A stretch of DNA of 64,000 nucleotides from positions 1,488,001-1,552,000 of the forward strand of contig NC_017455.1 of NCBI RefSeq assembly GCF_000165465.1, read 5' to 3'. Position numbers and translations under genes: made by a program. A model generated the notes under the pieces. It was not told where the DNA came from and did not search any database. It saw only the letters and a list, made by a program, of their open reading frames with translations. Shown piece by piece: positions 29,311-49,087 of the stretch (its first letter is position 1; the number at the start of each line of letters is the position of its first letter). The stretch is from Halanaerobium praevalens DSM 2228. Its GTDB lineage: Bacteria > Bacillota > Halanaerobiia > Halanaerobiales > Halanaerobiaceae.

Positions 29311-29366
29311 ATTATCCCCCAGATTCAGTTAGTGTTTATGTAAAAGAAGCTCTTGCTGTGCTATTG

Positions 29367-29870: not shown

Positions 29871-29967
29871 CATATAACGTCCCTGGGATTTAAGAAGTTT
29901 ATGAGGACTGCCCTTGCCGAATAAATTTGCATGGAGCGCAGCGGAATCTTTAATCCCATGTTATGTG
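29871..29967 (-). repeat. attC-like site 7 (type C, short)
   Basis: Boxes CATATAAC and GTTATGTG; TGGGATTTAAGAAG pairs with TCTTTAATCCCA. The shortest site (97 bp). Confidence 0.82.
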
Positions 29968-29989
29968 AAGTCGGTTTTTTTAAAAAAAT

Positions 29990-30736: not shown

Positions 30737-30786
30737 AATTATTCCTCCAAACTTTTTATAATAATACTTATTTTCTTAACCGATTT

Positions 30787-30900
30787 CACATAACGTATCC
30801 GTATTGCCGAAGTCCATCAACCCTTAGATAGCTCCTATCTTGGGTTGATGGATTTGGGTGCAGTGACGAAGGAACGAAACCGGCAATATATTGTTATATG
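30787..30900 (-). repeat. attC-like site 8 (type E)
   Basis: Boxes CACATAAC and GTTATATG; stem TATTGCCG/CGGCAATA, then TCCATCAACCC/GGGTTGATGGA. Distinct sequence from all other sites but the same layout. Confidence 0.75.
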
Positions 30901-30995
30901 ATGTTGCACGCGGGCTATAGTAGCTAGATTTATATCTAAATAATTTTATAACTTCATCATTTTTTGTCTAATTTCTTTTGGTGTATAGATTTCTT

Positions 30996-31766
30996 TTATT
31001 TAATAACTTTCCCTACAATCTTATCAAATCTACTATCCATGCAGACACTAATATCAGTTGTAATAAATTTACCTTTATAAAAAAGACTAAATATTGTAGC
31101 TGGAGTGGGAGCATTTTTTGCTTCTTTCATTGTTTCAAGTTTTATTGTTTTTATTTTTAAATTTCTTTTTTCAGCTGTTTCAGTCAAAGATTTCTTGACA
31201 TGATATTCTGAATAAGGACAACGATTAGTATAATAAGCTACATATCCCTCTTTTTCAGAACACTCTCCACTTTTCACTGTTTCTCTAAACTTTGGGTTGT
31301 TAGCTTTTTTAGAAAAATCTAATGAAATTAGAATGAACCCGGAAGTGATTTCATCACATACTTCAAATCCCTGTTTAAGTAGCCATTTGCTATCACTCAT
31401 AAAATGAAATTTTTTCTTGCCAACAACAGTAACTAAACCATCTCTTCCCTGTTTTTTAGCATCCGTAATTGTTTGCTGTAGCAGGGCTTTTCCATGTCCA
31501 CTTTTTTTATATTTACCAGAAACCCAAAAACAGCCAATATGCATATAATTTGGAGCAATAATCGGTACCCAGGCTTTTTCTGCCGGTCCATATTCTATAA
31601 ATACTTTTGCTCGTTCATCTAATCGCAAAAAAGTATACCCATTATCAAATTGCTCCTCTAACCACTGTTTTTTTAGTTCATAACTTTCCGAACATTTTTT
31701 GTCCGAAAAAGCACAGCAAATATGTTCATTTTCAATATTATTTTGATCAAGTTTAATATACCCCAT
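30996..31766 (-). CDS. GNAT acetyltransferase with YoaP-like C-terminal domain
   Basis: 256 residues. An N-terminal acetyltransferase (HIGCFWVSGKYKKSGHGKALLQQ is the acetyl-CoA loop) is joined to a C-terminal YoaP-type domain with a NRCPYSEYH motif (~195), a thioredoxin-like cysteine region. YoaP proteins are uncharacterised. Third gene of the largest ordinary cassette, after the WYL regulator and a zinc-ribbon protein. Confidence 0.75.
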   Translation of the reverse strand: MGYIKLDQNNIENEHICCAFSDKKCSESYELKKQWLEEQFDNGYTFLRLDERAKVFIEYGPAEKAWVPIIAPNYMHIGCFWVSGKYKKSGHGKALLQQTITDAKKQGRDGLVTVVGKKKFHFMSDSKWLLKQGFEVCDEITSGFILISLDFSKKANNPKFRETVKSGECSEKEGYVAYYTNRCPYSEYHVKKSLTETAEKRNLKIKTIKLETMKEAKNAPTPATIFSLFYKGKFITTDISVCMDSRFDKIVGKVIK

Positions 31767-31810
31767 TTTTTTACCCCCATCTTCTTATTTAAGTCACCAA
31801 TCATTAACTA

Positions 31811-32074
31811 TTATTTTTTCCATCTCTCTAGTTTTGGAATACTCCGAGTAAATATCCAAGCAATAATTTTTGGCATTCCTTGTTCTTTCATTTTTTCAAT
31901 ACAGAATGATTGCATTTTTTGTGGAGTATCAATTTCAGGACTTGTAAATTCACCATTTTGATAGCAATAAGAACAGTATTTCTTACTTTTTGAACGGTTT
32001 TTTTCAGTTCCTCCTTTTTGAGGATCATTACTCATTGGCATACCACAGCTCTGACAATATTTGTAGTCTTTCAT
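31811..32074 (-). CDS. Zinc-ribbon protein
   Basis: 87 residues from the ATG at 32074 behind AAAGGTGGTGAC (a TTG seven codons upstream is less likely). Two cysteine pairs, CQSCGMPM and CSYCYQNGEF, form a treble-clef-like zinc ribbon typical of the PF12674 group. The function is unknown. It is often found beside WYL regulators or GNAT genes, as here. Confidence 0.75.
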   Translation of the reverse strand: MKDYKYCQSCGMPMSNDPQKGGTEKNRSKSKKYCSYCYQNGEFTSPEIDTPQKMQSFCIEKMKEQGMPKIIAWIFTRSIPKLERWKK

Positions 32075-32148
32075 TTTTGTCACCACCTTTAACAATTAGT
32101 TGTTAACTATATTATAAGGGAAGAAACCTGACAACACTATGTCAGGTA

Positions 32149-33081
32149 TTATTTATAAACATCAAAAACTCTTTTTCCTTGCTCTTTAATTATTTTTCGC
32201 AAATAAAATGGCTCTAATATCTCTATTTTATCACCAAAACTCAAAATAAAACTATAAAGCCATTCATCCTCTGTAAAACTCACCTTAACTAATAAAGTTC
32301 CATCTTCTTCAAATATAATATCATCTTCATTAAAATATTCCTCTATCTGCAACTTAACTTCAGGCTTAAATCTCATAACTAAGTTAATTGTTTTTCGTTT
32401 ACTTTGTATGTTTTCTGTCAAAAAACTTTCTTCAAACTCCCTATCTTTTCTCTTAAACTTTTCCTTTAAAATCTTTAGTTCCTTTATTCGATATATTTTA
32501 AAGAATCTATAATCCGCTCTTAATCTGCAATAGCCATAAAGATACCAGGAATTCCCCCTTAAAACTAAAGTCATTGCTTCAACTATTCTTGTCGTACTTA
32601 CTCCTTTTAAATCTGTATAAGAAAAATTTAAAAGTATATTTTTATCTATAGCTTTTTCTATCAAATCAATCTTATTTTTCTCTATATTATTAATTCCCCA
32701 AGGATTAAAATCAATAAAATATTTCTTGTTCTTCTCCATCCTTTCTTTTTCAAAATCAGGAATTAACACTTTTATTTTTTCTTTAATATCTTTAAATTCT
32801 CTTTTATTAAGTGTTGTATTTAACCCTTCTAAAGCAACTAAAATAGAATTCATTTCGTCACAATTTAAAATCTGCTTATCAATCTTATAATTATCAATAA
32901 TACTATATCCGCCATTAGAACCCTGATAAGAAATAATAGGAACGCCAGCCTGGTTAATAGCTTCTAAATCACGATAAATAGTCCTTACTGATACCTCAAA
33001 ATAATCTGCTAGCTCTTTAGCAGTGACTTTTTTGCGATTCATTAAATACATTACTATCGCTAATAACCTATATAATTTCAA
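32149..33081 (-). CDS. DeoR/YafY-type HTH regulator with WYL domain
   Basis: 310 residues, start TTG behind GGAGGAATAAAAA. N-terminal winged HTH (KVTAKELADYFEVSVRTIYRDLEAINQAGVPI) with a following WYL domain (SWYLYGYCRLRADYRFFKIYRI) and C-terminal extension. WYL domains bind nucleic acid or nucleotide ligands. First gene of the three-gene cassette 8, probably controlling the two genes below and itself. Confidence 0.88.
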   Translation of the reverse strand: MKLYRLLAIVMYLMNRKKVTAKELADYFEVSVRTIYRDLEAINQAGVPIISYQGSNGGYSIIDNYKIDKQILNCDEMNSILVALEGLNTTLNKREFKDIKEKIKVLIPDFEKERMEKNKKYFIDFNPWGINNIEKNKIDLIEKAIDKNILLNFSYTDLKGVSTTRIVEAMTLVLRGNSWYLYGYCRLRADYRFFKIYRIKELKILKEKFKRKDREFEESFLTENIQSKRKTINLVMRFKPEVKLQIEEYFNEDDIIFEEDGTLLVKVSFTEDEWLYSFILSFGDKIEILEPFYLRKIIKEQGKRVFDVYK

Positions 33082-33158
33082 TTTTTATTCCTCCATTAAA
33101 ATATATTAGTTCATTATCAAATATTAAATTTCATTTATATAAAATTAGTGTGCAATGT

Positions 33159-33292
33159 CATATAACGTTACTGGGATTTGCGCTTGTGCCTGGTTCCGTA
33201 GGAACTGGCGTAAAGCTTGCCTTTTCATATCCGTAATTGGTTAGCTTGAAAGCTTTATGACAGAAGGCATGACGCCAATCCCATGTTATCGG
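33159..33292 (-). repeat. attC-like site 9 (type A)
   Basis: Boxes CATATAAC and GTTATCGG; TGGGATTTGCGC core, GTTCCGTAGGAAC and AAGCTTGC repeats. Confidence 0.85.
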
Positions 33293-33306
33293 AAGTTTAT
33301 TTATTC

Positions 33307-34227
33307 TTATAATAAACCATAGCCAAATAAATCTTTTACTCTTTCTCTTTCCTTTTCAGTCATTTCTCTTAATACCTTTTGTCCTATTGCTGTAAAAAAA
33401 TGTTTAATTTTTCATCTGTAACATCAGTAATAATATTAGTATTATCCTTATAAATATTCATGATACCAAATAGATATCTTAAATATACTGTAGGTTTAAT
33501 TATATCACCAATATCTTCCCAAGAGCTTGTAAAACCAGAATCAACATAATTTTTTTCTAATTTTCTATCGCATTCACCCTTACAAGCCCAATATATATCT
33601 TTATAAATAGTTTTTTCTATTTCTGAATCTTCATTACGTTCAACTTTTTTTACAAAAACTATATTGCTTCCATATTGGTTATTATATAAATCAGGAAGTA
33701 GATCTTTACCACAAACACTACACTCTAAAGGTAAATATTCATCTACTATTAGATGTAAGGGTTTGATTTCTTTATAGTTTTCAGGTAAATACCTCATTAA
33801 AAGTTTTGAAAACCCTATTCTAATTAAATAGTTTTCAATAAGTTTATGATCAAATATTTTATAGTCTTTAATATTTTTATTATTTTTTAGATCAAATAAA
33901 CGCTTATTTAAATTAGAAGATGCTATAGTAGAATAAAAGCCAATAAAACCATCTGCTTTAAAACTTCTTACCCGTTCCAAAATATTTTGTTCATTACTTT
34001 TCATTTACTGCTCTATTACTATTAGCAAAGTTTTTACAACTAACTAACCATTTGAATTTATATTTACCTAAATTGCCTGATATTTCTTCAGATACAAGTA
34101 TATCTTTTCCATGATCATTTCCTCTATCTGGAGTTGATTCTATATAAAAACCTACTTCTTGAAGAAAATCTCGAGCAAATAACTCCCATACTTCTCCATC
34201 TGGATCCAATTCACTAAAATCAATCAT
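33307..34227 (-). pseudogene. Restriction endonuclease (Mrr-like), two frameshifts
   Basis: Three frame segments rebuild one protein. 34227-33994 (77 aa) gives the nuclease core: WELFARDFLQEVGF, PDRGNDHGKDILV and WLVSCKNFA (D...E/Q..K-type PD-(D/E)xK pattern). A lost A near 34000 leads into NEQNILERVRSFKADGFIGFYSTI (206-aa segment) with a CxxC...CxxxC zinc site (ECSVCGKDL, CKGECDRK). A second slip at the A7 run near 33395 leads to HFFTAIGQKVLREMTEKE and stop at 33307. Probably a lost type IV/II defence gene; the homology is clear, the substrate is not. Confidence 0.7.
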
Positions 34228-34256
34228 ATATTATGCACCTCATTTTAAATAAATTT

Positions 34257-34390
34257 CCGATAACGTCCCTGGGATTTGCGCTCGTGACTGGTTCCGTAGG
34301 AACTGGCGTAAAGCTTGCGTTTTCATACCCGTAATTGGTTAAATTGCAAGCTTTATGACAGAAGTCATGACGCCAATCCCATGTTATATG
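34257..34390 (-). repeat. attC-like site 10 (type A)
   Basis: Boxes CCGATAAC and GTTATATG; TGGGATTTGCGC core with GTTCCGTAGGAAC. Confidence 0.85.
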
Positions 34391-34526
34391 ATGCCGTAGC
34401 TTTATCTATTAATTTATCAATTATTAACTTACTTCATGCAAAAGAAAAAAATCCCTGCATTTATACAGTAAATGTTTTTATATAAACTTAATTTTAAATT
34501 TTTACTTCCTTTTATAACATATATGT

Positions 34527-34534
34527 GATATAAT
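34527..34534 (+). promoter_or_regulatory. Likely -10 region of the toxin-antitoxin promoter
   Basis: TATAATAA-like -10 about 30 bases before the toxin ATG; an ACATATATGT palindrome just upstream may be the antitoxin operator. No convincing -35 seen. Confidence 0.4.
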
Positions 34535-34561
34535 AAATTTAGAAATTGGAGTGAATAGATT

Positions 34562-34897
34562 ATGTATAAAATTAAGTATTATGCAAAAAATAATAAATCT
34601 CCAGTAATTGAATTTATTAAAAAACAGTCAGCTAAAGAAAAAGCTAAAATTCTAAGAGAAATAGAACTTCTAGAAGAATTTGGTCTATTCCTTGGTATGC
34701 CCCATCTTAAAAAGTTAAAAGGATATGATGATCTCTGGGAATTACGAATAAAGCATAGTTCTAATATATTTAGGGTTTTCTTTTTAAATTATCAGGATGG
34801 TATCTTCGTTCTTTTGCATATCTTTAAGAAGAAATCTAATAAAACTCCACAGAGAGAAATAGATATTGCGCTTAACAGACTTAATTCTATCAAGTGA
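34562..34897 (+). CDS. higB: RelE/HigB-type toxin
   Basis: 111 residues of the RelE/HigB ribosome-dependent mRNA interferase fold: KKQSAKEKAKILREIELLEEFG, LKKLKGYDDLWELRIKHSSNIFRVFF and FVLLHIFKKKSNKTPQREIDIA, the classical Gp49/HigB pattern. The start ATG follows TTGGAGTG. It runs opposite to every other cassette gene, with its own promoter and terminator, and precedes its antitoxin by 10 bases. Confidence 0.88.
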   Translation: MYKIKYYAKNNKSPVIEFIKKQSAKEKAKILREIELLEEFGLFLGMPHLKKLKGYDDLWELRIKHSSNIFRVFFLNYQDGIFVLLHIFKKKSNKTPQREIDIALNRLNSIK

Positions 34898-34907
34898 GGT
34901 GAAAAAA

Positions 34908-35186
34908 ATGGAACTTATAGATCATAAAGAACTTAAAAATGAACTTTTTGAATCTGAAAAAATTAAGGAAGAATATGAAAAACTGAATGTTATGTATGAA
35001 ATCAAAAAACAAATAATTAGGTATAGAATTGAAAATAATTTAACTCAGAAAGAATTAGCAGATAGAATAGGAACTAAACAGTCTGCTATTTCCAGACTAG
35101 AAAATGACGATTATAATCCGAGTGTTGAATTTCTTGATAAAGTTGCTCACGCATTTGGTAAAAAACTTGAAATCAGATTTAATTAA
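34908..35186 (+). CDS. higA: HigA-type HTH antitoxin
   Basis: 92 residues, start ATG 34908 behind GAGGTGAAAA just after the toxin stop; the longer frame from 34866 lies inside the toxin gene. A Cro/CI HTH (NNLTQKELADRIGTKQSAISRLENDDYNPSVEFL) binds DNA, and the N-terminal acidic helix (ELKNELFESEKIKEEYEK) probably contacts the toxin. It should neutralise HigB and repress the pair. Confidence 0.88.
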   Translation: MELIDHKELKNELFESEKIKEEYEKLNVMYEIKKQIIRYRIENNLTQKELADRIGTKQSAISRLENDDYNPSVEFLDKVAHAFGKKLEIRFN

Positions 35187-35219
35187 CAGTGCTGAAAGTT
35201 TTGTAGCACTGTTTTTTTA
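35186..35219 (+). terminator. Rho-independent terminator of the toxin-antitoxin pair
   Basis: ACAGTGCT pairs with AGCACTGT and is followed by seven T. It isolates the plus-strand pair from the array. Confidence 0.88.
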
Positions 35220-35259
35220 TTTGACAAGTTTTTAGTTATTAAAGCTTTTGCTACGGTTT

Positions 35260-35392
35260 CATATAACGTTCCTGGGATTTGCGCTTGTGCCTGATTCCGT
35301 AGGAACTGGCGTAAAGCTTGCTTTTTCATATCCATATTGGTTAGCCTGCAAGCTTTATGACAGAAGGCATGACGCCAATCCCATGTTAGCCG
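35260..35392 (-). repeat. attC-like site 11 (type A)
   Basis: Boxes CATATAAC and GTTAGCCG; TGGGATTTGCGC core. Confidence 0.85.
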
Positions 35393-35407
35393 AAGTTAGT
35401 TATGGAT

Positions 35408-36430
35408 CTAATCTAAATCTTCTTTAATTATATTTTGGCTAAAATATAAATTATCTGTTTTATCTTTTTGTATTTGATTTTTAATAATATATTCTATTTC
35501 TTTATCTGATTTCTCAAGGCTGAAAAAAACTATACACATATTTTTTCCATAATCTAAGTACTTTTGCAGATTAATTTTATAAACATATCTACTTTGTACG
35601 TTATTTAATAAAAAAGCTTCTTTTAATAAAAAATTCTCAAATCCTTTCTCTTCTTTTGGTTTTTGTTTAACTGTTATATTTGACATTAAAAAATCATCTT
35701 TATTAATAGTTATCTCAGTATTTTCTTTTTTATCTTTTTCTTGTGTAAAGTGTATAAAAGTCTCCTCTGGAATTTTGTTGTTATAAGTTATCTCTAAAAA
35801 TTCATCACTAAATTCTAAGATAATATTTCCATCAAATACATCTTGCATTAAGAAAACCCCGAAGTAAAAAACATAAACAGATAATAATAAGCAAAGTACA
35901 GTATATAAAATTAAATACCACTTATTTTTTAATACATCACTTGTTATATTAGTAATTGATTTTATAAATTTCTTCTTGTTGCAAATTAATATTATTAAAA
36001 TAATAATTATTGTTGATATTAAGATAATAATATTGAAGTATGTAAATAAATTATAAATAACAAATAAAATTAATATGGTTAAATTTAATATTATATATAG
36101 TTTAAAGACATTAAAAATTTCTATGAATTTTTCTTCAGCTTTTATTATTTTTTCTTTGTTTTTATTATCGTGGTTTAAAACTAAACCAGTTAATTCATAA
36201 TAACAATATTGTAATAATAAATATAATAAAATAAAACCAGAAGTAATAATAGTTGAAGTAATAATATGTTCAATACTAAACCCACTTTTTACATAAAATC
36301 TTTGTCGAAATATTTTCATTAAAAAAACAGATATATTTTTGTATATTACCCAAAAACCACCAAATGTTGTTATAACTAAAACTAACCTTGATAGTCGCTT
36401 ATTATAAGTTAGTACTTCTTCTTTTGACAT
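35408..36430 (-). CDS. Membrane protein of unknown function
   Basis: 340 residues from ATG 36430 behind GAAGGAGTTATA; a longer frame to 36532 only reads through the attC. TM helices near residues 17-36, 58-80, 115-160 (two) and 172-195, then a soluble, probably extracytoplasmic C-terminus (~200-340) rich in Glu/Lys and aromatic residues. No family recognised. Sole gene of cassette 11. Confidence 0.65.
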   Translation of the reverse strand: MSKEEVLTYNKRLSRLVLVITTFGGFWVIYKNISVFLMKIFRQRFYVKSGFSIEHIITSTIITSGFILLYLLLQYCYYELTGLVLNHDNKNKEKIIKAEEKFIEIFNVFKLYIILNLTILILFVIYNLFTYFNIIILISTIIIILIILICNKKKFIKSITNITSDVLKNKWYLILYTVLCLLLSVYVFYFGVFLMQDVFDGNIILEFSDEFLEITYNNKIPEETFIHFTQEKDKKENTEITINKDDFLMSNITVKQKPKEEKGFENFLLKEAFLLNNVQSRYVYKINLQKYLDYGKNMCIVFFSLEKSDKEIEYIIKNQIQKDKTDNLYFSQNIIKEDLD

Positions 36431-36456
36431 TATTATAACTCCTTCGTAACTAATTT

Positions 36457-36589
36457 CGGCTAACGTCCCTGGGATTTGCGCTTGTGCCTGATTCCTTAGG
36501 AACTGGCGTAAAGCTTGCTTTTTCATATCCATATTGGTTAGCCTGCAAGCTTTATGACAGAAGGCATGGCGCTAATCCCATGTTATATG
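36457..36589 (-). repeat. attC-like site 12 (type A)
   Basis: Boxes CGGCTAAC and GTTATATG; TGGGATTTGCGC/GCGCTAATCCCA. Confidence 0.85.
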
Positions 36590-36912
36590 ATGTAATAATT
36601 TGCTGCGTAAAAAGTTACTCACTACTTCAACTTACTGAATTCTGATATTAACTCTTAACCAGCAAATAAATTCATGAATTCTATACTATATGAAATCTTC
36701 ACGAAGTGCGTGAAGATTAAACAGTGACTAATTTACCTTCTGATATATGTAAATAATTATATAAATTATAATCGCCCAAGTCTATTGTTAAAGCCACTTG
36801 AAACCTGCAATTAGTATTTTCTTCATTTGCAGGAGTTATTTCATATCAGTTAGAGGTGCCCCAACCCTTCTTTTATCTCTTTCTCTTATTTGTTGATGTT
36901 TAATTATTATTT
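36590..36912 (-). other. Gene-less 330-bp cassette, copy 2
   Basis: Same family as at 29554. Hairpin ATCTTCACG/CGTGAAGAT intact; the residual frame has a TGA early on. A short frame KHQQIREKD-type (IIKHQQIRERDKRRVGAP) lies at its 5' end. Confidence 0.7.
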
Positions 36913-37091
36913 CATATAACGTCCCGAGCATTTGCGACGTGGCTGTCCTCCGGTTGGCACATCTCTTGCTATTAATCTGCATTTTAAGTTTAAGCAGCTG
37001 CAAGAGATGTGACAAAAGCCATGTCCCGAAGGGCGACGGCCGTTTTACTGCCAAATTTATAACTAAGTCAGCGCCAATGCTCTGTTATGTG
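36913..37091 (-). repeat. attC-like site 13 (type B, long)
   Basis: Boxes CATATAAC and GTTATGTG; GAGCATTTGCG/CGCCAATGCTC; GCATCTCTTGC-type inner arm (GCACATCTCTTGC here). The apparent 72-aa frame 36836-37054 merely crosses it. Confidence 0.82.
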
Positions 37092-37409
37092 CTGTAATAA
37101 TTTACTGCGTTAAAAGTTACTCACTACTTCAACTTACTGAATGCTGATTTTAACTCTTAACCAGCAGATAAGTTCATTAACTCTTTATTATATTAAATCT
37201 TCACGAAGTGCGTGAAGATCAAACAGTGACTAATTTACTCTCTGATATATGTAAATATCTTTGTAAATTATAATCATCCAAGTTAATTGTTAAAACCACT
37301 GAAAACTAGCAATTATTATTTTCTTCATTTGCAGGAGTTAATCCATATCAGTTAGCGATGAACCAACCCTATCACTTCTCTCTTTTTTGCTGATGTTCAA
37401 TTATTATTG
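37092..37409 (-). other. Gene-less 330-bp cassette, copy 3
   Basis: Same family; hairpin intact, several stops in the residual frame. Confidence 0.7.
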
Positions 37410-37541
37410 CACATAACGTCCCTGGGATTTGCGCTCGTGCCTGTTTCCACAGGAACTGGCGTAAAGCTTGCATCAATGTTTCTTGCTGCCTATATTGCAA
37501 GCTTTATGACAGAAGGCATGACGCCAATCCCATGTTATGTG
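37410..37541 (-). repeat. attC-like site 14 (type A)
   Basis: Boxes CACATAAC and GTTATGTG; core TGGGATTTGCGC and GTTTCCACAGGAAC. Closes the graspetide cassette. A 217-base noncoding stretch (37542-37758) separates it from the precursor gene. Confidence 0.85.
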
Positions 37542-37758
37542 ATGTTCTCCCTTATTATTTAATTTAATAATTAAATAATATAAATATTAGAAGATATATC
37601 TTTATAAATTAATATATACTATAAATAATCAGGTTTTATTTTAATAAACTTTATACTTAATATTTTTGTTTTCTCTATAAATTATTAATATATTCAATTG
37701 TTTTTCATTAACAAATTTTAGTCTAATAAATTATATTTTTATAATCCATGTTTCAATT

Positions 37759-38127
37759 TTAAATATTCAATTCATCTGGATCACTTGTCTCAATTTTAGC
37801 AGTTTTTTTAGTTCCAAAAAATAAGCTAACCTCGTCCTCATCGTCATTTTCAATTGTTTCACTATATAAAGTTGACTCGAGGCATTTAAATTCATCTTCA
37901 TCATCATTTTCAACATTTTCAGTAAGCGCTGTTGTCTCAAAACATTTAAACTCATCCTCATCCTCATTTTCAACAGATTTAGTTAGTCTAGTAGAACTTG
38001 AAAAATATTCCTTAATTACTTTTCTTTCATCAATAAAAGATACTTGTTCTTTTTTATTATAAGCAAATCTTTTAGTCTTATTAAAATTTTTTTCTTTTAT
38101 ATAATTAGCTATATAAGGCTTTTTCAT
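37759..38127 (-). CDS. Graspetide precursor peptide with four TxxTxxxExxDxD cores
   Basis: 122 residues: basic leader (1-42, MKKPYIANYIKEKNF) then four 20-residue repeats. Core residues are T46-T49-E53-D56-D58, T66-T69-E73-D76-D78, T86-S89-E93-D96-D98 and T106-T109-E113-D116-D118. Each fits TxxTxxxExxDxD, the core of thuringinin-type (group 2) omega-ester peptides, in which Thr/Ser side chains are esterified to Glu/Asp. The adjacent ATP-grasp gene supports this. ATG lies 2 bases after the membrane-protein stop, behind GAGGGGAAATAG. Two cysteines (62, 82) are repeated too. No known export motif seen. Confidence 0.85.
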   Translation of the reverse strand: MKKPYIANYIKEKNFNKTKRFAYNKKEQVSFIDERKVIKEYFSSSTRLTKSVENEDEDEFKCFETTALTENVENDDEDEFKCLESTLYSETIENDDEDEVSLFFGTKKTAKIETSDPDELNI

Positions 38128-38129
38128 TT

Positions 38130-39242
38130 CTATTTCCCCTCTCTATATATTGGTATTATATTAATAAATTTTTCTTTAGTCTCTAAACTTGAATCTAAAA
38201 TTGTTTGTGTTATTTTAATATTATTAACATTATATAATTTTATAGTATTAATTATATCATTATATTTTTCACTATTCGCATCTCCTCCTTTTAATATAAT
38301 TATTTCTTTTATCTCATTTTTAAGTAAATTTTTTTGTAAATTATTTATTCTAATTAAACTACTATTAAATTTCCTTTGATCATTTTTAGATAAGTCTATT
38401 AGTACCCTATTATTAATATAACCTTTATTTTCATTTATGGTACCAGTATAAAACACAAATAAATTATGGCAAATTATTAGTAAAAAAGCAAAAAAGAGAG
38501 CTTGTTTTATATAAGTTTCAATATTTAAAACATAAGTAACAAAAATACGAGCTTCTTCTTTTTTACAATACCAGTCCTTATAAAAACTACGAGCCATTTT
38601 TATTAGTAATTTTTTCTTTTCTTTAATTTCTTTAACTTCTTTTAAAATAAATCTTGAAAAACTATTAACTTTCAAAATATTATATAATAAAATTGTAACA
38701 TTCATTAAATTATAAAATATAACAAAAGCAAATATATAATATAGTGAGCTTCCCCAATTAGAAAAATTCAACAATGTTGGAATTGATATAGTAAATAATC
38801 CTAACAAAATAACTATATATGTATTTACTTTATTATAGCTTTTATCCTTTCTCTTATTTTCTTCCTCTAATTTATATTTTAATATTTCTATTTTTTTGTT
38901 GATATTTTCACTATCTTCTTCTTCAATTAGTTTTTCAAATTCGTCTGCTTTTCCTTCCACTTCTTTTTCTATTTTTTCTTTATGTTTTCTCAAATTCATA
39001 AAATATAAAATATCACTTAACTTTTTAACATTGAAAAAATTAAACCCTTCTTCTTGGTGGTATGTTAATATATATATTTTTATTATTCCTAAAGATATAA
39101 CAAATAAAGAAATACGCAACTTTAAATAATATTCTTTTTTCTTCTTTTTTTTCATTGTACCAAAATTACTATCATCAGCAACATTTAATATTGGTGACTT
39201 TGATAGTAATCTTAATAAATAATATAAAATATTATTCCACAT
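38130..39242 (-). CDS. Membrane protein of the graspetide cassette
   Basis: 370 residues from ATG 39242 (a GTG three codons earlier is inside the overlap with the ligase gene). TM helices near 42-62, 140-162, 165-190 and 245-270; a charged coiled-coil region (~85-135, EKIEKEVEGKADEFEKLIEE) lies between the first two. The last ~95 residues are probably outside the cytoplasm. No transporter ATPase or protease motif. Placement between ligase and precursor suggests export, immunity or delivery of the modified peptide, but this is inference. Confidence 0.65.
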   Translation of the reverse strand: MWNNILYYLLRLLSKSPILNVADDSNFGTMKKKKKKEYYLKLRISLFVISLGIIKIYILTYHQEEGFNFFNVKKLSDILYFMNLRKHKEKIEKEVEGKADEFEKLIEEEDSENINKKIEILKYKLEEENKRKDKSYNKVNTYIVILLGLFTISIPTLLNFSNWGSSLYYIFAFVIFYNLMNVTILLYNILKVNSFSRFILKEVKEIKEKKKLLIKMARSFYKDWYCKKEEARIFVTYVLNIETYIKQALFFAFLLIICHNLFVFYTGTINENKGYINNRVLIDLSKNDQRKFNSSLIRINNLQKNLLKNEIKEIIILKGGDANSEKYNDIINTIKLYNVNNIKITQTILDSSLETKEKFINIIPIYREGK

Positions 39243-40167
39243 TTTTATCACCTGCTAAAAAATTAATTATCGCGTTGGAAATATCTAAATTTAATTCATC
39301 TTCTAGCCAAGCCCATTGACCGTTAGCATTTATTTCTAAAAAAATATATTTTCCATCACTTACTATAAAATCAAATGCTCCGTAATTCAGATTAAAAATT
39401 TTCATAAATTCTAAACATTTTCTTTTAATATTATTTGGTAAACAAACAAATGAATATTTAATATCATCTGATTTTCTCCAATCTATATCATCATCTGTTT
39501 CTATTTTAATTGAATAAAATTTCTTATTAACAACTGTAACTCTTAATTCATAATCTTTAGTAATATAGCTTTGAAAATAAGCAGGAGATAATTCTAATCC
39601 ATCAAACTCTATATTTTTATTAACTAAATTAGTTTGTATTATTCCAATTTTATCTCTACCAGTTTTATCTTTATAATTAATCTTACCTACTGAAATTGGC
39701 TTAACTATAGCCTTACTCTTTTTAATAAATTCATCAGCAAATACATTAGAATTAGTAATAAGTGATTGAGGTATATTAAACCCAACTTTTTTAGCAGCTT
39801 TTAATTGTATAATTTTATTATCTGCTCTTTTCAATATTATTGGTTTAGTTAAACATTTACCTTCAAAAGAATTTACTATACCTTCAATTAAAGTTAATAT
39901 TTCTTTATACATCATTCTATGATATTTCTTAGGATAAAAGCTAATATCAGGTAGCACAGGTTTCCTATAATAAATACTAAGAGTTTCATTTTCACTTATT
40001 TTATAAAAATCATTACTTATTTTCCAACCATCATTATATACTTTAATATTATAGTCATCCAATTTGTCAGTATTTAGTCTAAAAAAATTGAGATTATCAT
40101 TAAATTTATCTATAATATAATCAACTGTTAAATCATAAGAACTAGTTATTACTAATATTTTTTCCAT
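39232..40167 (-). CDS. ATP-grasp ligase of graspetide (microviridin-type) family
   Basis: 311 residues, ATG 40167 behind GTGAGGTGAAAC (the upstream GTG is part of that site). N-terminal pre-ATP-grasp fold (ILVITSSYDLTVDYIIDKF, then FFRLNTDKLDD), ATP-grasp subdomain with AIVKPISVGK, and C-terminal LNYGAFDFIVSDGKYIFLEINANGQWAWLE. The EINxNGQWxWxE segment is typical of MvdC/MvdD-like ligases that form ester or amide links between Thr/Ser/Lys and Asp/Glu side chains. First gene of the three-gene graspetide cassette; its stop overlaps the next start. Confidence 0.88.
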   Translation of the reverse strand: MEKILVITSSYDLTVDYIIDKFNDNLNFFRLNTDKLDDYNIKVYNDGWKISNDFYKISENETLSIYYRKPVLPDISFYPKKYHRMMYKEILTLIEGIVNSFEGKCLTKPIILKRADNKIIQLKAAKKVGFNIPQSLITNSNVFADEFIKKSKAIVKPISVGKINYKDKTGRDKIGIIQTNLVNKNIEFDGLELSPAYFQSYITKDYELRVTVVNKKFYSIKIETDDDIDWRKSDDIKYSFVCLPNNIKRKCLEFMKIFNLNYGAFDFIVSDGKYIFLEINANGQWAWLEDELNLDISNAIINFLAGDKNVE

Positions 40168-40281
40168 ATGTTTCACCTCACAATATTATGTTATTGCCAT
40201 TTATTTAATTATTACTAAGTAAAAGTTAAATAAATTTTCTCTTTTCAAATCTGAATAATTTTTATATTTTGGGGAGAATGT

Positions 40282-40416
40282 CACATAACGTTACCGGGAT
40301 TTGCGCTCGTGCCTGATTCCGTTAGGAACTGGCGTAAAGCTTGCTTTTTCGTATCCGTAATTAGTTAAATTGCAAGCTTTATGACAGAAGGCATGGCGCC
40401 AATCCCATGTTATGTG
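40282..40416 (-). repeat. attC-like site 15 (type A)
   Basis: Boxes CACATAAC and GTTATGTG; TGGGATTTGCGC variant CGGGATTTGCGC. Flanks the graspetide cassette on its 5' side. Confidence 0.85.
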
Positions 40417-40742
40417 CTGTACTAACTTAGCTGCGCTAAAAAAGTTTAATTTTTCTTCAACCGGCTAATCACTGATATTACCTCTTAACCAGCAAGTACT
40501 TCGTAAATTATGTACTATATTAAGTCTTCACGAAGTGCGTGAAGATCAAACAGTGACTAATTTACCTTCTGATATATGTAGATATCTTTGTGGATTATAA
40601 TCCTTCAAGTTCATTGTTAAAGCCACTGGAGACCTGCAGTTATTATTTACTTCATTTGCAGGAGTTAATATATCTCAGTTAGCGGTGCCCCAACCTTTCT
40701 CTTATCTTTTTCCCTTATTTGCCGATATTTAAGTTAGTATTG
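40417..40742 (-). other. Gene-less 330-bp cassette, copy 4 (first block copy)
   Basis: Same family; identical to 43880-44205. Start of the four-cassette duplicated block. Confidence 0.7.
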
Positions 40743-40876
40743 CACATAACGTTCCTGGGATTTGCGCTCGTGCCTGGTTCCGTAGGAACTGGCGTAAAGC
40801 TTGCTTTTCCATATCCGTGATTGGTTAATCTGCAAGCTTTATGACAGAAGGCATGACGCCAATCTCATGTTATCCG
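40743..40876 (-). repeat. attC-like site 16 (type A)
   Basis: Boxes CACATAAC and GTTATCCG; TGGGATTTGCGC core, closing box preceded by TCTCAT. Confidence 0.85.
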
Positions 40877-42341
40877 ACGTTTTGTAGACTTTCGTATAAC
40901 ATAATAGCTGTTAATATTAGCATTATTGCTGTCATACTCATCATTGAAATTTGAATCCACATATTTCTTTTTGATAGCTTATCACTAATTATTGCTGATA
41001 TTAAATTAGAATTCGAATATAAAGATTTTTTAACATTTATATATTGATTTTCCAGCAATGCTAAGTTATCAATTATTAAATTAAATATATCTTTAAATAA
41101 ATTATCTTCATTATTTTTTTGATGATCCCAGTTAGGAATAAATTCAAAAATATCATCTTCAAAGGGAATAGTATCTATCTTTTTATACCGCTCAAATTCT
41201 TTTATAAAATATGGTATGTTGCTTTCTAATTTAATAAAATCTTTTTTAATATTTTTTATTTTTTCAATTGCAATTGAACTATCTAGAAAATTAACTTTTG
41301 CTATTTCATCTCTCAGTTTTGATAAATGATATTTATATGTATTTAATAAAGTATAAAATACCCATATTATTAATGTGTGATCTATATATCTTAAGTAATT
41401 TGTAAGGCCAAATTTATTTTTGCCACCATAAAAACGTATATTTTCTATTGAAGAAAAAAGATTTTTAACATTTCCTGTTAGCATAATATTTGAATTGATA
41501 TTATTTTTATCTGGTAATAATTTAAGATATAAGCCAGGCAATTCATTGCATACCCATGAATTACTATTAACATCTAAATCTAATATATTTAAATAATTTC
41601 CATAATCAAATTTCTTGTCATTAAATGGCTCTTCCTTAGTTAAAGTTATAAAATCACATGTAGGTAAATCGTAATTAATTTCAGAAAACATTCCAGGAAA
41701 ATTAATTTTTATCCAATTAAAACACTTATTATGTATTTCTCTTTTAATATCTTTAACTTTTTTCTTTTTTGGTTAATAGGAGTTACGTACTGATATGTTT
41801 TATTTCTTTTTTTGATATAAGTTTTATAATTCTCTGAGATTGATTTTTGAAGTCTTGTTTCTTCATTATCATCTAATACGAATTGATAAGATAAAACAGT
41901 AATGCTAGGGATATATTGATGTATTTTTAGATAAATTTTTGAAATACCATCAGGCAATTCCATAGAACAAGTATGTGGTTGATCATTATTAAAAGGTACT
42001 AGTAAACCTATATTTATCCATCTAGTTGAAGACCCCTGTCTGCTATTTCTTATTATATTAATTAAATCTTTTTGATTAGACTTATTATAAAAAACATCTA
42101 TTTTGTTACTTTTTATCCCATTTATTAAATTTTCTATGTAATTTGGTGTATATGCTTCATAAATCCAAATACTTTTCATACTTATTTCTTCATCATCAGG
42201 TGGAGTAGAAACTAAATTTTTTTCAGGATCTTCTTCATTATGATAATATGTAAGACCTTCTTTAACTTTTTCAGGTATATCATTTTCCTTTTTTAAGTTT
42301 TCATCAATAAAATCATTAACTTTTTTTAAAATATTTTTCAT
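40870..42341 (-). pseudogene. 490-aa cassette protein, copy 1 (one-base deletion)
   Basis: Identical to the intact copy at 44333-45805 except for one T missing from a T run (six T at 41765-41770 instead of seven), giving separate frames 42341-41709 and 41691-40870. True start is ATG 42341 behind GAGGAGG; frame extension to 42515 only reads an attC. The encoded protein is unknown, with a C-terminal membrane anchor (WIQISMMSMTAIMLILTAIM). Confidence 0.85.
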
Positions 42342-42361
42342 TGCAAACCTCCTCAAAATGT

Positions 42362-42545
42362 CGGATAACGTCCCGAGCATTTGCGACGTGGCTGTCCTGT
42401 TCTTTAGGTTGGCGCATCTCTTGCTATTCATCTGCATTTTTGACTTGAATTGCTGCAAGAGATGTGACAAAAGCCATGTCCCGAAGGGCACGGATATTTC
42501 ACAGCCACATATCATACCCAGTTAGCGCTAATGCTCTGTTATGTG
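42362..42545 (-). repeat. attC-like site 17 (type B, long)
   Basis: Boxes CGGATAAC and GTTATGTG; GAGCATTTGCG/CGCTAATGCTC. Confidence 0.82.
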
Positions 42546-42862
42546 CTGTAATAACTTGCCTCATTAAAATTTGTACTCAACTTCAACTTACTGAATTCTG
42601 ATATTAATTCTTAACCAGCTCAAAAAGTTCATTAACCCTTTACTATATTAATTCTTCATGAAGTTCGTGAAGATCTAACAGTGACTAATTTACTTTTTGC
42701 TATATGTAAAAACCTTTGTAAATAGTAATTTCCCAAATTTATTGTTAACATCTACTAAAAAATATTACTTAATATTTCCTTAATGGAGAAAGTTAATGAA
42801 TTATAGTTAGCGATATCCAAACCTTATCTTTTATCTTTTTAGCCGATTTTTAGTTATTATTG
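42546..42862 (-). other. Gene-less 330-bp cassette, copy 5 (divergent)
   Basis: Most divergent member; hairpin stem altered (ATTCTTCATGAAGTTCGTGAAGAT), residual frame broken. Identical to 46010-46326. Confidence 0.65.
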
Positions 42863-42992
42863 CATATAACGATTCTGGGATTCGCGGTGTGCCCGGTGTC
42901 CACAGACCTGGAGCAAAGTTAGCTATCATATCCACAATTGTTTAAGTGCTGACTTTGTGCCAGAGGGCATGCCGTTAATCCCATGTTATCTG
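42863..42992 (-). repeat. attC-like site 18 (type F)
   Basis: Boxes CATATAAC and GTTATCTG; TGGGATTCGCGG core with GGTGTCCACAGACC and a distinct AGTTAGC/GCTGACT arm. Confidence 0.8.
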
Positions 42993-43286
42993 TCTGTTAT
43001 GACAATATCGACTCTACTGCTTATCATTTATCTTCAAACTCCGAACCTCTATCTTCTTTTTTGCCACGGGCTTCCCGCAAAAAACCTTAACCATCAGTCG
43101 GAAGTTTTGAAGATAATGCTATAACCTATCATAAGATTGATCATGATCTTCCTCAGAGCACCAGGCTGAGATAAAAACTCTGCAGTTTCTATTTATCTTC
43201 CCCGAAGAAAGCTTAAAAATATCATCCACCGATGACCAAAAACCCTTCTCTTGGTCTTATTAGCTGCAGTGACATTGTCATAATGT
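42993..43286 (-). other. Structured gene-less cassette, second family, copy 1
   Basis: About 295 bases with no plausible gene but strong pairing: TATGACAAT near the left end with ATTGTCATA near the right; ATCTTCAAA..CTCCGA with TCGGAAGTTTTGAAGAT; GACCA...TGGTC. More GC-rich than its surroundings. A structured RNA or folded DNA element is possible. Identical copy at 46457. Confidence 0.55.
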
Positions 43287-43421
43287 CAGATAACGTCCCT
43301 GGGATTTGCGCTCGTGACTGGTTCCGTCAGGAACTGGCGTAAAGCTTGCTTTTTCATACCCGATCCAGGTTAAATTGCAAGCTTTATGACAGAAGTCATG
43401 ACGCCAATCCCATGTTATACG
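43287..43421 (-). repeat. attC-like site 19 (type A)
   Basis: Boxes CAGATAAC and GTTATACG; TGGGATTTGCGC core. The frame 43346-43558 crosses it and is not a gene. Confidence 0.85.
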
Positions 43422-43743
43422 CTGTAATGATTTGCTGCGTAAAAGTTATTCCCTTCTTCAACTTACTGACTTTTGATATTAACTCTTACCCAGCAAAAAA
43501 GTTCATAAATTCTGTACTATATTACATCTTCACGAAGTGCGTGAAGATTGAACAGTGACTAATTTTCTTTCTGATATATGTAAATAATTTTGTAAATTAT
43601 AATTCTCCAAGTTCATTGTTAAAGCCACTTGAAACCTGCAATTATTATTTTCTTCATTTGCAGGAGTTAGTTCATGCCAGTTAGCGATGATCCAACCCTT
43701 CTCTTATCTTTTTCTCTTATTTGCTGATGTTTAATCATTATTG
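43422..43743 (-). other. Gene-less 330-bp cassette, copy 6 (best preserved)
   Basis: Minus-strand start-less frame open for ~60 codons: GWIIANWHELTPANEENNNC, FQVALTMNLENYNLQNYLHI, then SERKLVTVQSSRTS ending in the hairpin. In another frame MIKHQQIREKDKRRVGSSLT has an ATG. Separates the two copies of the duplicated block. Confidence 0.7.
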
Positions 43744-43879
43744 CGTATAACGTTACTGGGATTTTGCGCTCGTGCCTGTTTCCGCCAGGAACTGGCGTAA
43801 AGCTTGCGTTTTCATATCCGTTATTGGTTAACCTGCAAGCTTTATGACAGAAGGCATGGCGCCAATCCCATGTTATGTG
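43744..43879 (-). repeat. attC-like site 20 (type A)
   Basis: Boxes CGTATAAC and GTTATGTG; TGGGATTTTGCGC core. Confidence 0.85.
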
Positions 43880-44205
43880 CTGTACTAACTTAGCTGCGCT
43901 AAAAAAGTTTAATTTTTCTTCAACCGGCTAATCACTGATATTACCTCTTAACCAGCAAGTACTTCGTAAATTATGTACTATATTAAGTCTTCACGAAGTG
44001 CGTGAAGATCAAACAGTGACTAATTTACCTTCTGATATATGTAGATATCTTTGTGGATTATAATCCTTCAAGTTCATTGTTAAAGCCACTGGAGACCTGC
44101 AGTTATTATTTACTTCATTTGCAGGAGTTAATATATCTCAGTTAGCGGTGCCCCAACCTTTCTCTTATCTTTTTCCCTTATTTGCCGATATTTAAGTTAG
44201 TATTG
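43880..44205 (-). other. Gene-less 330-bp cassette, copy 7 (second block copy)
   Basis: Identical to 40417-40742; start of the second copy of the four-cassette block. Confidence 0.7.
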
Positions 44206-44339
44206 CACATAACGTTCCTGGGATTTGCGCTCGTGCCTGGTTCCGTAGGAACTGGCGTAAAGCTTGCTTTTCCATATCCGTGATTGGTTAATCTGCAAGC
44301 TTTATGACAGAAGGCATGACGCCAATCTCATGTTATCCG
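44206..44339 (-). repeat. attC-like site 21 (type A)
   Basis: Boxes CACATAAC and GTTATCCG; identical to site 16. Confidence 0.85.
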
Positions 44340-45805
44340 ACGTTTTGTAGACTTTCGTATAACATAATAGCTGTTAATATTAGCATTATTGCTGTCATAC
44401 TCATCATTGAAATTTGAATCCACATATTTCTTTTTGATAGCTTATCACTAATTATTGCTGATATTAAATTAGAATTCGAATATAAAGATTTTTTAACATT
44501 TATATATTGATTTTCCAGCAATGCTAAGTTATCAATTATTAAATTAAATATATCTTTAAATAAATTATCTTCATTATTTTTTTGATGATCCCAGTTAGGA
44601 ATAAATTCAAAAATATCATCTTCAAAGGGAATAGTATCTATCTTTTTATACCGCTCAAATTCTTTTATAAAATATGGTATGTTGCTTTCTAATTTAATAA
44701 AATCTTTTTTAATATTTTTTATTTTTTCAATTGCAATTGAACTATCTAGAAAATTAACTTTTGCTATTTCATCTCTCAGTTTTGATAAATGATATTTATA
44801 TGTATTTAATAAAGTATAAAATACCCATATTATTAATGTGTGATCTATATATCTTAAGTAATTTGTAAGGCCAAATTTATTTTTGCCACCATAAAAACGT
44901 ATATTTTCTATTGAAGAAAAAAGATTTTTAACATTTCCTGTTAGCATAATATTTGAATTGATATTATTTTTATCTGGTAATAATTTAAGATATAAGCCAG
45001 GCAATTCATTGCATACCCATGAATTACTATTAACATCTAAATCTAATATATTTAAATAATTTCCATAATCAAATTTCTTGTCATTAAATGGCTCTTCCTT
45101 AGTTAAAGTTATAAAATCACATGTAGGTAAATCGTAATTAATTTCAGAAAACATTCCAGGAAAATTAATTTTTATCCAATTAAAACACTTATTATGTATT
45201 TCTCTTTTAATATCTTTAACTTTTTTCTTTTTTTGGTTAATAGGAGTTACGTACTGATATGTTTTATTTCTTTTTTTGATATAAGTTTTATAATTCTCTG
45301 AGATTGATTTTTGAAGTCTTGTTTCTTCATTATCATCTAATACGAATTGATAAGATAAAACAGTAATGCTAGGGATATATTGATGTATTTTTAGATAAAT
45401 TTTTGAAATACCATCAGGCAATTCCATAGAACAAGTATGTGGTTGATCATTATTAAAAGGTACTAGTAAACCTATATTTATCCATCTAGTTGAAGACCCC
45501 TGTCTGCTATTTCTTATTATATTAATTAAATCTTTTTGATTAGACTTATTATAAAAAACATCTATTTTGTTACTTTTTATCCCATTTATTAAATTTTCTA
45601 TGTAATTTGGTGTATATGCTTCATAAATCCAAATACTTTTCATACTTATTTCTTCATCATCAGGTGGAGTAGAAACTAAATTTTTTTCAGGATCTTCTTC
45701 ATTATGATAATATGTAAGACCTTCTTTAACTTTTTCAGGTATATCATTTTCCTTTTTTAAGTTTTCATCAATAAAATCATTAACTTTTTTTAAAATATTT
45801 TTCAT
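44333..45805 (-). CDS. 490-aa cassette protein, copy 2 (intact), tail-anchored
   Basis: 490 residues from ATG 45805 behind GAGGAGGTTTGC; the frame continues to 45979 but that part only translates the neighbouring attC. Mostly soluble; two hydrophobic segments at about 315-335 (LIIWVFYTLLNTY) and the C-terminus 463-483 (WIQISMMSMTAIMLILTAIML), so probably membrane-anchored by its tail. Acidic N-terminus. No family recognised. The first copy has a one-base deletion. Confidence 0.75.
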   Translation of the reverse strand: MKNILKKVNDFIDENLKKENDIPEKVKEGLTYYHNEEDPEKNLVSTPPDDEEISMKSIWIYEAYTPNYIENLINGIKSNKIDVFYNKSNQKDLINIIRNSRQGSSTRWINIGLLVPFNNDQPHTCSMELPDGISKIYLKIHQYIPSITVLSYQFVLDDNEETRLQKSISENYKTYIKKRNKTYQYVTPINQKKKKVKDIKREIHNKCFNWIKINFPGMFSEINYDLPTCDFITLTKEEPFNDKKFDYGNYLNILDLDVNSNSWVCNELPGLYLKLLPDKNNINSNIMLTGNVKNLFSSIENIRFYGGKNKFGLTNYLRYIDHTLIIWVFYTLLNTYKYHLSKLRDEIAKVNFLDSSIAIEKIKNIKKDFIKLESNIPYFIKEFERYKKIDTIPFEDDIFEFIPNWDHQKNNEDNLFKDIFNLIIDNLALLENQYINVKKSLYSNSNLISAIISDKLSKRNMWIQISMMSMTAIMLILTAIMLYESLQNVG

Positions 45806-45825
45806 TGCAAACCTCCTCAAAATGT

Positions 45826-46009
45826 CGGATAACGTCCCGAGCATTTGCGACGTGGCTGTCCTGTTCTTTAGGTTGGCGCATCTCTTGCTATTCATCTGCA
45901 TTTTTGACTTGAATTGCTGCAAGAGATGTGACAAAAGCCATGTCCCGAAGGGCACGGATATTTCACAGCCACATATCATACCCAGTTAGCGCTAATGCTC
46001 TGTTATGTG
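45826..46009 (-). repeat. attC-like site 22 (type B, long)
   Basis: Boxes CGGATAAC and GTTATGTG; identical to site 17. Confidence 0.82.
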
Positions 46010-46326
46010 CTGTAATAACTTGCCTCATTAAAATTTGTACTCAACTTCAACTTACTGAATTCTGATATTAATTCTTAACCAGCTCAAAAAGTTCATTAAC
46101 CCTTTACTATATTAATTCTTCATGAAGTTCGTGAAGATCTAACAGTGACTAATTTACTTTTTGCTATATGTAAAAACCTTTGTAAATAGTAATTTCCCAA
46201 ATTTATTGTTAACATCTACTAAAAAATATTACTTAATATTTCCTTAATGGAGAAAGTTAATGAATTATAGTTAGCGATATCCAAACCTTATCTTTTATCT
46301 TTTTAGCCGATTTTTAGTTATTATTG
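46010..46326 (-). other. Gene-less 330-bp cassette, copy 8 (divergent)
   Basis: Identical to copy 5 at 42546. Confidence 0.65.
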
Positions 46327-46456
46327 CATATAACGATTCTGGGATTCGCGGTGTGCCCGGTGTCCACAGACCTGGAGCAAAGTTAGCTATCATATCCACA
46401 ATTGTTTAAGTGCTGACTTTGTGCCAGAGGGCATGCCGTTAATCCCATGTTATCTG
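46327..46456 (-). repeat. attC-like site 23 (type F)
   Basis: Boxes CATATAAC and GTTATCTG; identical to site 18. Confidence 0.8.
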
Positions 46457-46750
46457 TCTGTTATGACAATATCGACTCTACTGCTTATCATTTATCTTCA
46501 AACTCCGAACCTCTATCTTCTTTTTTGCCACGGGCTTCCCGCAAAAAACCTTAACCATCAGTCGGAAGTTTTGAAGATAATGCTATAACCTATCATAAGA
46601 TTGATCATGATCTTCCTCAGAGCACCAGGCTGAGATAAAAACTCTGCAGTTTCTATTTATCTTCCCCGAAGAAAGCTTAAAAATATCATCCACCGATGAC
46701 CAAAAACCCTTCTCTTGGTCTTATTAGCTGCAGTGACATTGTCATAATGT
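46457..46750 (-). other. Structured gene-less cassette, second family, copy 2
   Basis: Identical to the copy at 42993, within the second copy of the duplicated block. Confidence 0.55.
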
Positions 46751-46885
46751 CAGATAACGTCCCTGGGATTTGCGCTCGTGACTGGTTCCGTCAGGAACTG
46801 GCGTAAAGCTTGCTTTTTCATACCCGATCCAGGTTAAATTGCAAGCTTTATGACAGAAGTCATGACGCCAATCCCATGTTAGACG
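46751..46885 (-). repeat. attC-like site 24 (type A)
   Basis: Boxes CAGATAAC and GTTAGACG; last part of the second block copy, ending at the cleavage box. Confidence 0.85.
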
Positions 46886-46895
46886 AAGTGATTAT

Positions 46896-47942
46896 TTAAG
46901 AAATTATTGAAATGTTATCTGTCTCAAAATTTTCATATCTTCCTTTAATGTTTGCAGAAAAAGAAACTGTTAATTCTATATTCTTAATTTTTCCTGTTTG
47001 AGCATTAGCAACAGATCCATCGTCACGTTCTTTAAACATATTCTTGCTTATCCAACATTCAGTTATAAAATTACAAGAAACTATTATTTCGTTTCCTATT
47101 AAATCTTTTTCCCAATTATTAATATCTTTAATTATTACATTATCTAATGTTATAACTGTATCTTCATATTTATAAACTGACATATCAAATAATGAAGAAC
47201 TAATTTTTATTATATAATCAAATAGTTCTGATTTATAAGATTTCTTTTGATCATTTAAAAGCTTTGCTAATTCTTTATCTGTAAATATAATTTCATTAAA
47301 TAATTCTTTTAATCTTTTATTTTTCATTTTTGAAATCAAATCTTCTTCGTTTTGAATAAGGTATTTAGAAATTTTATATAAAGTAAATTTACTTGAGTCT
47401 TTTCTTAATTCTGGATGTAATGATTCATTATCACTATCATAAAAATCAGAAACATTATTGGTTATAAAAAAACAATTATCTAAATTATCTCTTTCTGCTA
47501 TTTCAGAATATGATAACCAAATTAAACAATCTCTAAATTCTTGTTTATTTCCAGGGGCAAAAGGTTTTTTTCTTTGTATAGCTCTTTTAACTACTTCAGG
47601 TAAATAAGAATTTTTATAATCAACAATTTTAACCAAATCTCTACTTTCTAAATTTTTATAATAATTTTCGAAATCTTTAACATGTTGATCTATACTTTTT
47701 AAATCATTTTTTATATCAATTTTAGAATTAGAATATTTATTAAATTCTCTTATATCTTTCAAGAGATTATTTTGAGCTTTTTCTAAATTTTTTTTAAGGT
47801 TTTCTTTGGATTCTTCTAATACTACTTTTGATATAAATATTTTACCATTCAAACCATCAACTAATTGCAATAGATTTCTATTATAATTATTCTTTAAAAA
47901 AGGATCAGTATAAAGTAAAGTAGTGTCAATAAAAATATTCAT
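46896..47942 (-). CDS. PIN-domain (DUF4935-like) putative nuclease
   Basis: 348 residues from ATG 47942 behind GGAGGAAATAATT; a longer frame to 47984 has no ribosome site. N-terminal PIN fold with acidic residues in MNIFIDTTLLYTDPF, a central E-rich helical region (VVLEESKENLKKNLEKAQ), then FRDCLIWLSYSEIAE and CFFITNNVSDFYDSD. The C-terminal ~150 residues are not recognised. PIN proteins cleave RNA. Sole gene of cassette 24; possible defence or toxin role. Confidence 0.75.
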   Translation of the reverse strand: MNIFIDTTLLYTDPFLKNNYNRNLLQLVDGLNGKIFISKVVLEESKENLKKNLEKAQNNLLKDIREFNKYSNSKIDIKNDLKSIDQHVKDFENYYKNLESRDLVKIVDYKNSYLPEVVKRAIQRKKPFAPGNKQEFRDCLIWLSYSEIAERDNLDNCFFITNNVSDFYDSDNESLHPELRKDSSKFTLYKISKYLIQNEEDLISKMKNKRLKELFNEIIFTDKELAKLLNDQKKSYKSELFDYIIKISSSLFDMSVYKYEDTVITLDNVIIKDINNWEKDLIGNEIIVSCNFITECWISKNMFKERDDGSVANAQTGKIKNIELTVSFSANIKGRYENFETDNISIIS

Positions 47943-47986
47943 AATTATTTCCTCCATGTTTATGTCTATAAATTTCAAAATCATTT

Positions 47987-48121
47987 CGTCTAACGTTACT
48001 GGGATTTGCGCTCGTGCCTGGTTCCGTCAGGAACTGGCGTAAAGCTTGCTTTTTCGTATCCGTTATTAGTTAGCCTGCAAGCTTTATGACAGAAGGCATG
48101 ACGACAATCCCATGTTATACG
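47987..48121 (-). repeat. attC-like site 25 (type A)
   Basis: Boxes CGTCTAAC and GTTATACG; TGGGATTTGCGC core. Confidence 0.85.
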
Positions 48122-48134
48122 CTGTAGCACAACG

Positions 48135-49068: not shown

Positions 49069-49087
49069 AAGTCTAGCCTTAACTTGA

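Follow-up and report, generated by a model that had tools for sequence, protein, structure and literature searches.

A putative graspetide pathway carried as a single attC-bounded cassette in an integron-type array of Halanaerobium praevalens

Most integron cassettes contain one gene only, with a role in resistance or of unknown function. One cassette of Halanaerobium praevalens DSM 2228 raises the question of whether a complete pathway for the synthesis of a graspetide (omega-ester RiPP) can be carried in this form. In the stretch of DNA analysed here (the window; 64,000 nucleotides), three minus-strand open reading frames (ORFs) lie between two near-palindromic attC-like repeats, as read from the sequence over 37.4-40.5 kb. 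The original prediction of a graspetide pathway contained in one integron cassette is supported by ligase homology, the leader and core motif of the precursor, and the cassette boundaries. At a probability of roughly 0.7, we read the locus as a mobile pathway of this kind, whose product is likely a repeat protease inhibitor or antagonism factor. The features of the cassette and of the array that holds it are as follows:

22717..51548, minus strand: attC cassette array holding the graspetide cassette; 26 strong covariance-model matches in the window, all minus
37404..37545, minus strand: attC-like site downstream of the genes (in gene orientation, the attC that belongs to the cassette), 154.3 bits with a covariance model built from 15 sites that include this one
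37759..38127, minus strand: precursor of 122 aa with leader MKKPYIANY... and four 20-residue repeats, whose cores lie at residues 46, 66, 86 and 106
38130..39242 (or 39251), minus strand: membrane protein, 370 aa from ATG, 373 from GTG at 39251
39232..40167, minus strand: graspetide-type ATP-grasp ligase of 311 aa; its ATG start follows GAGGTG
40276..40420, minus strand: attC-like site upstream of the genes, 168.3 bits with the same model, of whose 15 sites it is also one

In integron cassettes, pairing takes place between the outer half-sites of one cassette and not between the halves of an individual attC. A pattern search found 22 attC-like sites in the window, and the consensus fold of the sites is an imperfect palindrome. 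Of 21 pairs of neighbouring sites, 14 have half-sites that match 8/8 across the cassette, and several of the pairs that fall short of 8/8 have further attC-like sites between them; the two halves within a single site match 8/8 in only 3 of the 22. For the graspetide cassette itself, the outer half-site CACATAAC of the upstream site and GTTATGTG of the downstream site are paired at 8/8 positions. Because half-sites pair across cassettes rather than within sites, the flanks of the graspetide cassette are true cassette boundaries, and a covariance-model scan between the two detected no further attC. On the whole genome, the same model finds 53 sites, all minus, which form two arrays (1.160-1.186 Mb and 1.511-1.540 Mb). 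Of 11 further genomes in the genus, 9 contain matches to it; the two that lack one are only 75% and 83% complete.

An IS3 element splits the tyrosine recombinase that adjoins the first array. The graspetide cassette resides in the second array, far away; the same IS3 element also occurs in the window, at 24487-25320. An intact homologue of the recombinase was found in Orenia:

2389-4731 (locus L012): tyrosine recombinase that adjoins the attC array, IS3-split
174-1217 (locus L037): tyrosine recombinase of Orenia, intact

The nearest recombinase scores below the TIGR02249 (IntI) cut-off. The 347-aa protein of Orenia can be aligned with XerA-like enzymes as well as with IntI4, of which it skips residues 179-239, which we take to be the place of the IntI-specific region; neither protein was found to be an IntI integrase with this extra region. 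An N-terminal extension is similar in both recombinases, with a weak HARP match in one of them. As the recombinase is split and its Orenia homologue lacks the IntI4 stretch, the label "attC cassette array" is safe, whereas "canonical integron with IntI" is not. The chromosomal integrons of Treponema and Vibrio are similarly attC-bounded cassette arrays of mostly unknown genes, and the Treponema recombinase is oriented as its cassettes (PMC3607928). In contrast to both, the recombinase here carries a HARP-like extension at its N-terminus, with no counterpart of the IntI4 stretch, and the cassettes carry up to five genes.

The ORF reading confirms the gene order that had been claimed for the cassette, which spans approx. 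2.9 kb: the ligase comes first, followed by the membrane protein and, last, the precursor, all on the minus strand. Translational coupling is likewise borne out, since the ligase ORF overlaps the membrane-protein ORF from either of its possible starts (ATG 39242 or GTG 39251), and the precursor ATG lies 2 nt past the membrane-protein stop with a strong Shine-Dalgarno sequence (GAGAGGGG) ahead of it. A promoter scan returned 33 sites against 26.4 expected, none of which stands out, and neither a terminator nor a protease gene was found in the cassette. The membrane gene or a close ligase is absent from all 60 relatives, which suggests that the cassette is an accessory trait. Weak ligase matches in two relatives (G006 and G012) are partial and low-scoring, and another (G013) is a RimK/MptN-like gene adjoining an mch-like gene.

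The identity of the ligase is indicated by both profile and structural comparisons. The NCBIfam models that match it best all describe RiPP ATP-grasp ligases (TIGR04187, 182 bits; MvdC, 159 bits; MvdD, 147 bits; grasp-with-spasm, 88 bits), with all scores below the strict cut-offs. Among PDB entries, it aligns over its full length with CdnC (7mgv, E 5e-31) and with enzymes of the MdnB/MdnC type (5ig8, 5ig9, 7m4s). The concern that active-site residues might be missing is answered by these alignments, in which the ATP/Mg residues are all kept (K123, K156, R209, D229-W230-R231, D266, E278, and N280); they are also invariant across five homologues. Viral contigs searched with the ligase and with the membrane protein gave no match, and plasmids yielded distant ligases only and no relative of the precursor or the membrane protein.

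The precursor was predicted to contain four 20-residue repeats, each with an exact TxxTxxxExxDxD motif (one with Ser), and this stands. TxxTxxxExxDxD is probably also the core consensus of thuringinin. The four cores (TRLTKSVENEDED, TALTENVENDDED, TLYSETIENDDED, and TKKTAKIETSDPD) are spaced exactly 20, 20 and 20 residues apart, and TxxT/SxxxExxDxD is found in 4/4 repeats, compared with a mean of 0.003 matches per sequence in composition-preserving shuffles. As in other graspetide cores, Ser/Thr precede Asp/Glu. The leader segment PYIANY fits the published Phhx(1,2)h signature, a general motif that occurs in about half of graspetide precursors (PMC8939145). Two details of the original prediction need to be revised. 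The Cys said to follow each DEDEFK is present, as FKC, after repeats 1 and 2 only; repeat 3 ends in DEDEVSLFF and repeat 4 in DPDELNI, and the Spirochaetes homologue described below has no Cys. Moreover, three esters per core (up to 12 in all) had been expected; however, thuringinin, which is trivalent, and plesiocin both have two esters per repeat (PMC12291112), so that eight esters (-144 Da) are the better forecast. Thus, the precursor probably receives about two esters per repeat and eight as a whole.

The genome scan revealed one close relative of the set, in Spirochaetes MAG.183 (JAKSBL010000620.1), in which a ligase, a membrane protein, and a precursor occur in the same order. Identity to the window proteins is 51-52% for the ligase and 31-36% for the membrane protein, the latter pair aligning nearly end to end (31%, E 1e-24). 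The precursor of the MAG has five repeats, all of which (5/5) match TxxTxxxExxDxD, at a spacing of 19; shuffles of both precursors give 0.003-0.005 motif matches per sequence. In the ligase tree, computed without a misframed Algibacter row, the window and Spirochaetes enzymes group together (100/99). This shared gene content, order, and motif demonstrate that the three-gene set is conserved. We regard the graspetide pathway as real and conserved, and as probably working. Unlike the window cassette, the Spirochaetes operon starts with a TIR-domain gene (508-1578), which ends 5 nt before the ligase (from 1584), and a ThsB-type TIR gene (4218-4548) lies behind the set. No attC of the window type was found on this 4.5-kb contig.

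The membrane protein matched no Pfam or NCBIfam family, and a profile search that covered 299 genomes from the phylum of the window, together with 393 from that of the Spirochaetes MAG, recovered two copies only. It consists of an N-terminal domain, a charged, coiled-coil-like stretch, a transmembrane (TM) hairpin, a further TM segment, and a C-terminal alpha/beta-like tail. The four-helix protein that had been proposed agrees with its hydropathy, which displays four segments (42-60, 143-161, 167-185, and 239-257); however, the first of these was not recovered in the Spirochaetes homologue, and a core of three TM segments between N- and C-terminal domains is therefore the more likely architecture. 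Structure models are of low confidence (pLDDT 43 and 48), too poor for a fold search. A SLATT-like or ExbD-like identity was considered and rejected, as neither had family or PDB support. Nor is a membrane partner a new component, as had been suggested, for 3-TM partners are usual in graspetide loci of Bacillota (PMC8939145). In the window, however, the protein is 370 aa long, compared with roughly 200 aa for these partners, to which it has no clear sequence similarity: a profile comparison with the 3-TM partners of other loci gave a weak match only (21 columns, E 0.0026, probability 11%). With no family assignment and models of this quality, a role in export or display is a guess.

The closest known systems are thuringinin of Bacillus thuringiensis (TgnA/TgnB) and related graspetides of groups 3/5/6 (Makarova precursor cluster 13). 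Thuringinin-type loci and the window have in common a single ATP-grasp ligase and tandem core repeats (PMC12291112), as well as a related leader rule and a membrane protein in the locus; the uncharacterised membrane proteins of Makarova cluster 18 are specific to thuringinin loci and have been proposed to be peptide transporters (PMC8939145). The window differs in its four 20-residue repeats, in the position of the ligase at the start and the precursor at the end of the set, and in carriage by an integron cassette.

Six further full-length ligases were found in 398 genomes of the phylum, and that of Orenia metallireducens MSL40 is a seventh. Each of the seven has short precursors and a membrane-protein gene as neighbours; the membrane proteins have at most three TM segments, and two of the seven are split or cut in the assembly. 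The Orenia locus (NZ_PVNB01000010.1, 6454-10916), from the same class of bacteria, comprises three precursors, a ligase, and a membrane protein inside one integron cassette. The attC model, built from window sites only, matches the Orenia contig just upstream of these genes (6454-6599, 33.5 bits, E 2.8e-6), and half-sites there pair across successive cassettes at 8/8, 8/8, 8/8, and 7/8. An IS110-family transposase gene disrupts the attC that belongs to this cassette, which agrees with the known preference for attC sites among IS1111-group elements (Post and Hall 2009, as cited in PMC11208160). One neighbouring attC of the contig contains a group II intron-type reverse-transcriptase gene. As in the window, the Orenia membrane protein has three TM segments and overlaps the ligase, and the whole set lies in one attC-bounded cassette. 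However, the three precursors come first and have single cores (...TSDESTDR), and the ligase is only 33% identical to that of the window and belongs to another subclade (94/94). Since ligase and precursors are of different groups, the two cassettes look like separate captures; the presence of the Orenia locus in a cassette as well shows that such carriage is recurrent.

On the basis of these comparisons, a possible course of biosynthesis can be proposed. The ligase would bind the N-terminal PYIANY leader and phosphorylate Asp/Glu side chains in each repeat, which would then be joined to the two Thr/Ser of the same repeat, probably as two esters. The membrane protein, produced together with the ligase, may hold the modified polypeptide at the membrane and export or display it. 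The product would be likely to act as a repeat protease inhibitor or antagonism factor, an accessory trait given to the strain by the cassette. Every graspetide that had been characterised by 2022 is a protease inhibitor (PMC8939145).

Three other explanations were weighed against this one. The cassette might instead be a defence module, in which the membrane protein is a pore or membrane effector, which the modified peptide senses or restrains, or in which this peptide acts as the inhibitor of a phage protease. Phage-defence cassettes are abundant in integron arrays; the neighbouring cassettes of the window (22877-50203) encode Fic, PIN, HEPN, and Gp49/RelE-like proteins, several of them of toxin or defence types, and the two TIR genes around the Spirochaetes set point in the same direction. 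However, the Spirochaetes contig is so short that its context is thin, neither the window nor the Orenia cassette contains a TIR gene, and PADLOC gives no match for the ligase or the membrane protein. We consider a defence function unlikely, and protease inhibition or antagonism is favoured over it. Much less probable still is an enzyme that adds amino acids such as Glu to the acidic repeats in the manner of RimK, with no macrocycles being formed. A RimK-like domain is the sole Pfam match of the ligase above cut-off, and the repeats are strongly acidic (net charge -12), yet the RimK model reaches 50 bits compared with 147-182 bits for the MvdC, MvdD, and SAV_5884 models, and glutamylation would not need a conserved Thr/Ser register.

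A graspetide pathway could also be present as a silent passenger, intact but barely expressed and retained by chance after recombination of the array had ceased. Such a fate would fit the IS3-split recombinase, which lies by the other array, far from the cassette, and the lack of a terminator and of a clear promoter. In contrast, the three intact ORFs, their good ribosome sites, and a motif kept in all four repeats argue for recent selection, and we regard mere persistence as improbable, slightly more so than defence. Hence, a mobile graspetide pathway that provides a protease inhibitor or antagonism factor is the preferred reading.

A literature search, from whose coverage most subscription journals fell outside, returned no paper on graspetides and integrons together, and among works on integrons, attC, and biosynthetic gene clusters, none describes a RiPP cassette in its title or abstract. 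Whole peptide-making pathways seem to travel as integron cassettes, as three- and five-gene pathways of different graspetide types occur as single cassettes in two genera; no earlier report of this was found. If so, integrons would have a part in moving natural-product pathways between strains, which would help to explain the jumps of graspetide loci between distant bacteria. More tentatively, and with more doubt than confidence on our part, integron arrays of Halanaerobiia might be a platform on which whole RiPP pathways, each with precursor, modifying enzyme, and membrane partner in one cassette, are regularly exchanged, served by a recombinase that lacks the IntI-specific region and has a HARP-like N-terminus. 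The 2.9-kb set is small enough for direct testing in E. coli.

Elsewhere in the array, two short inter-attC stretches, 36593-37404 and 40420-40737, are cassettes without a convincing ORF. Approximately 3.46 kb of the array is duplicated in tandem (window 40300-43763 and 43763-47227, 97-99% identity), and a 548-aa ORF of the second duplicate (44333-45979) is broken in the first copy into 41709-42515 and 40870-41691. Finally, a methyltransferase cassette occurs twice, at 28405-29341 and 47973-48908, with the copies 19.6 kb apart, 93-97% identical, and the ORF of the second shortened.
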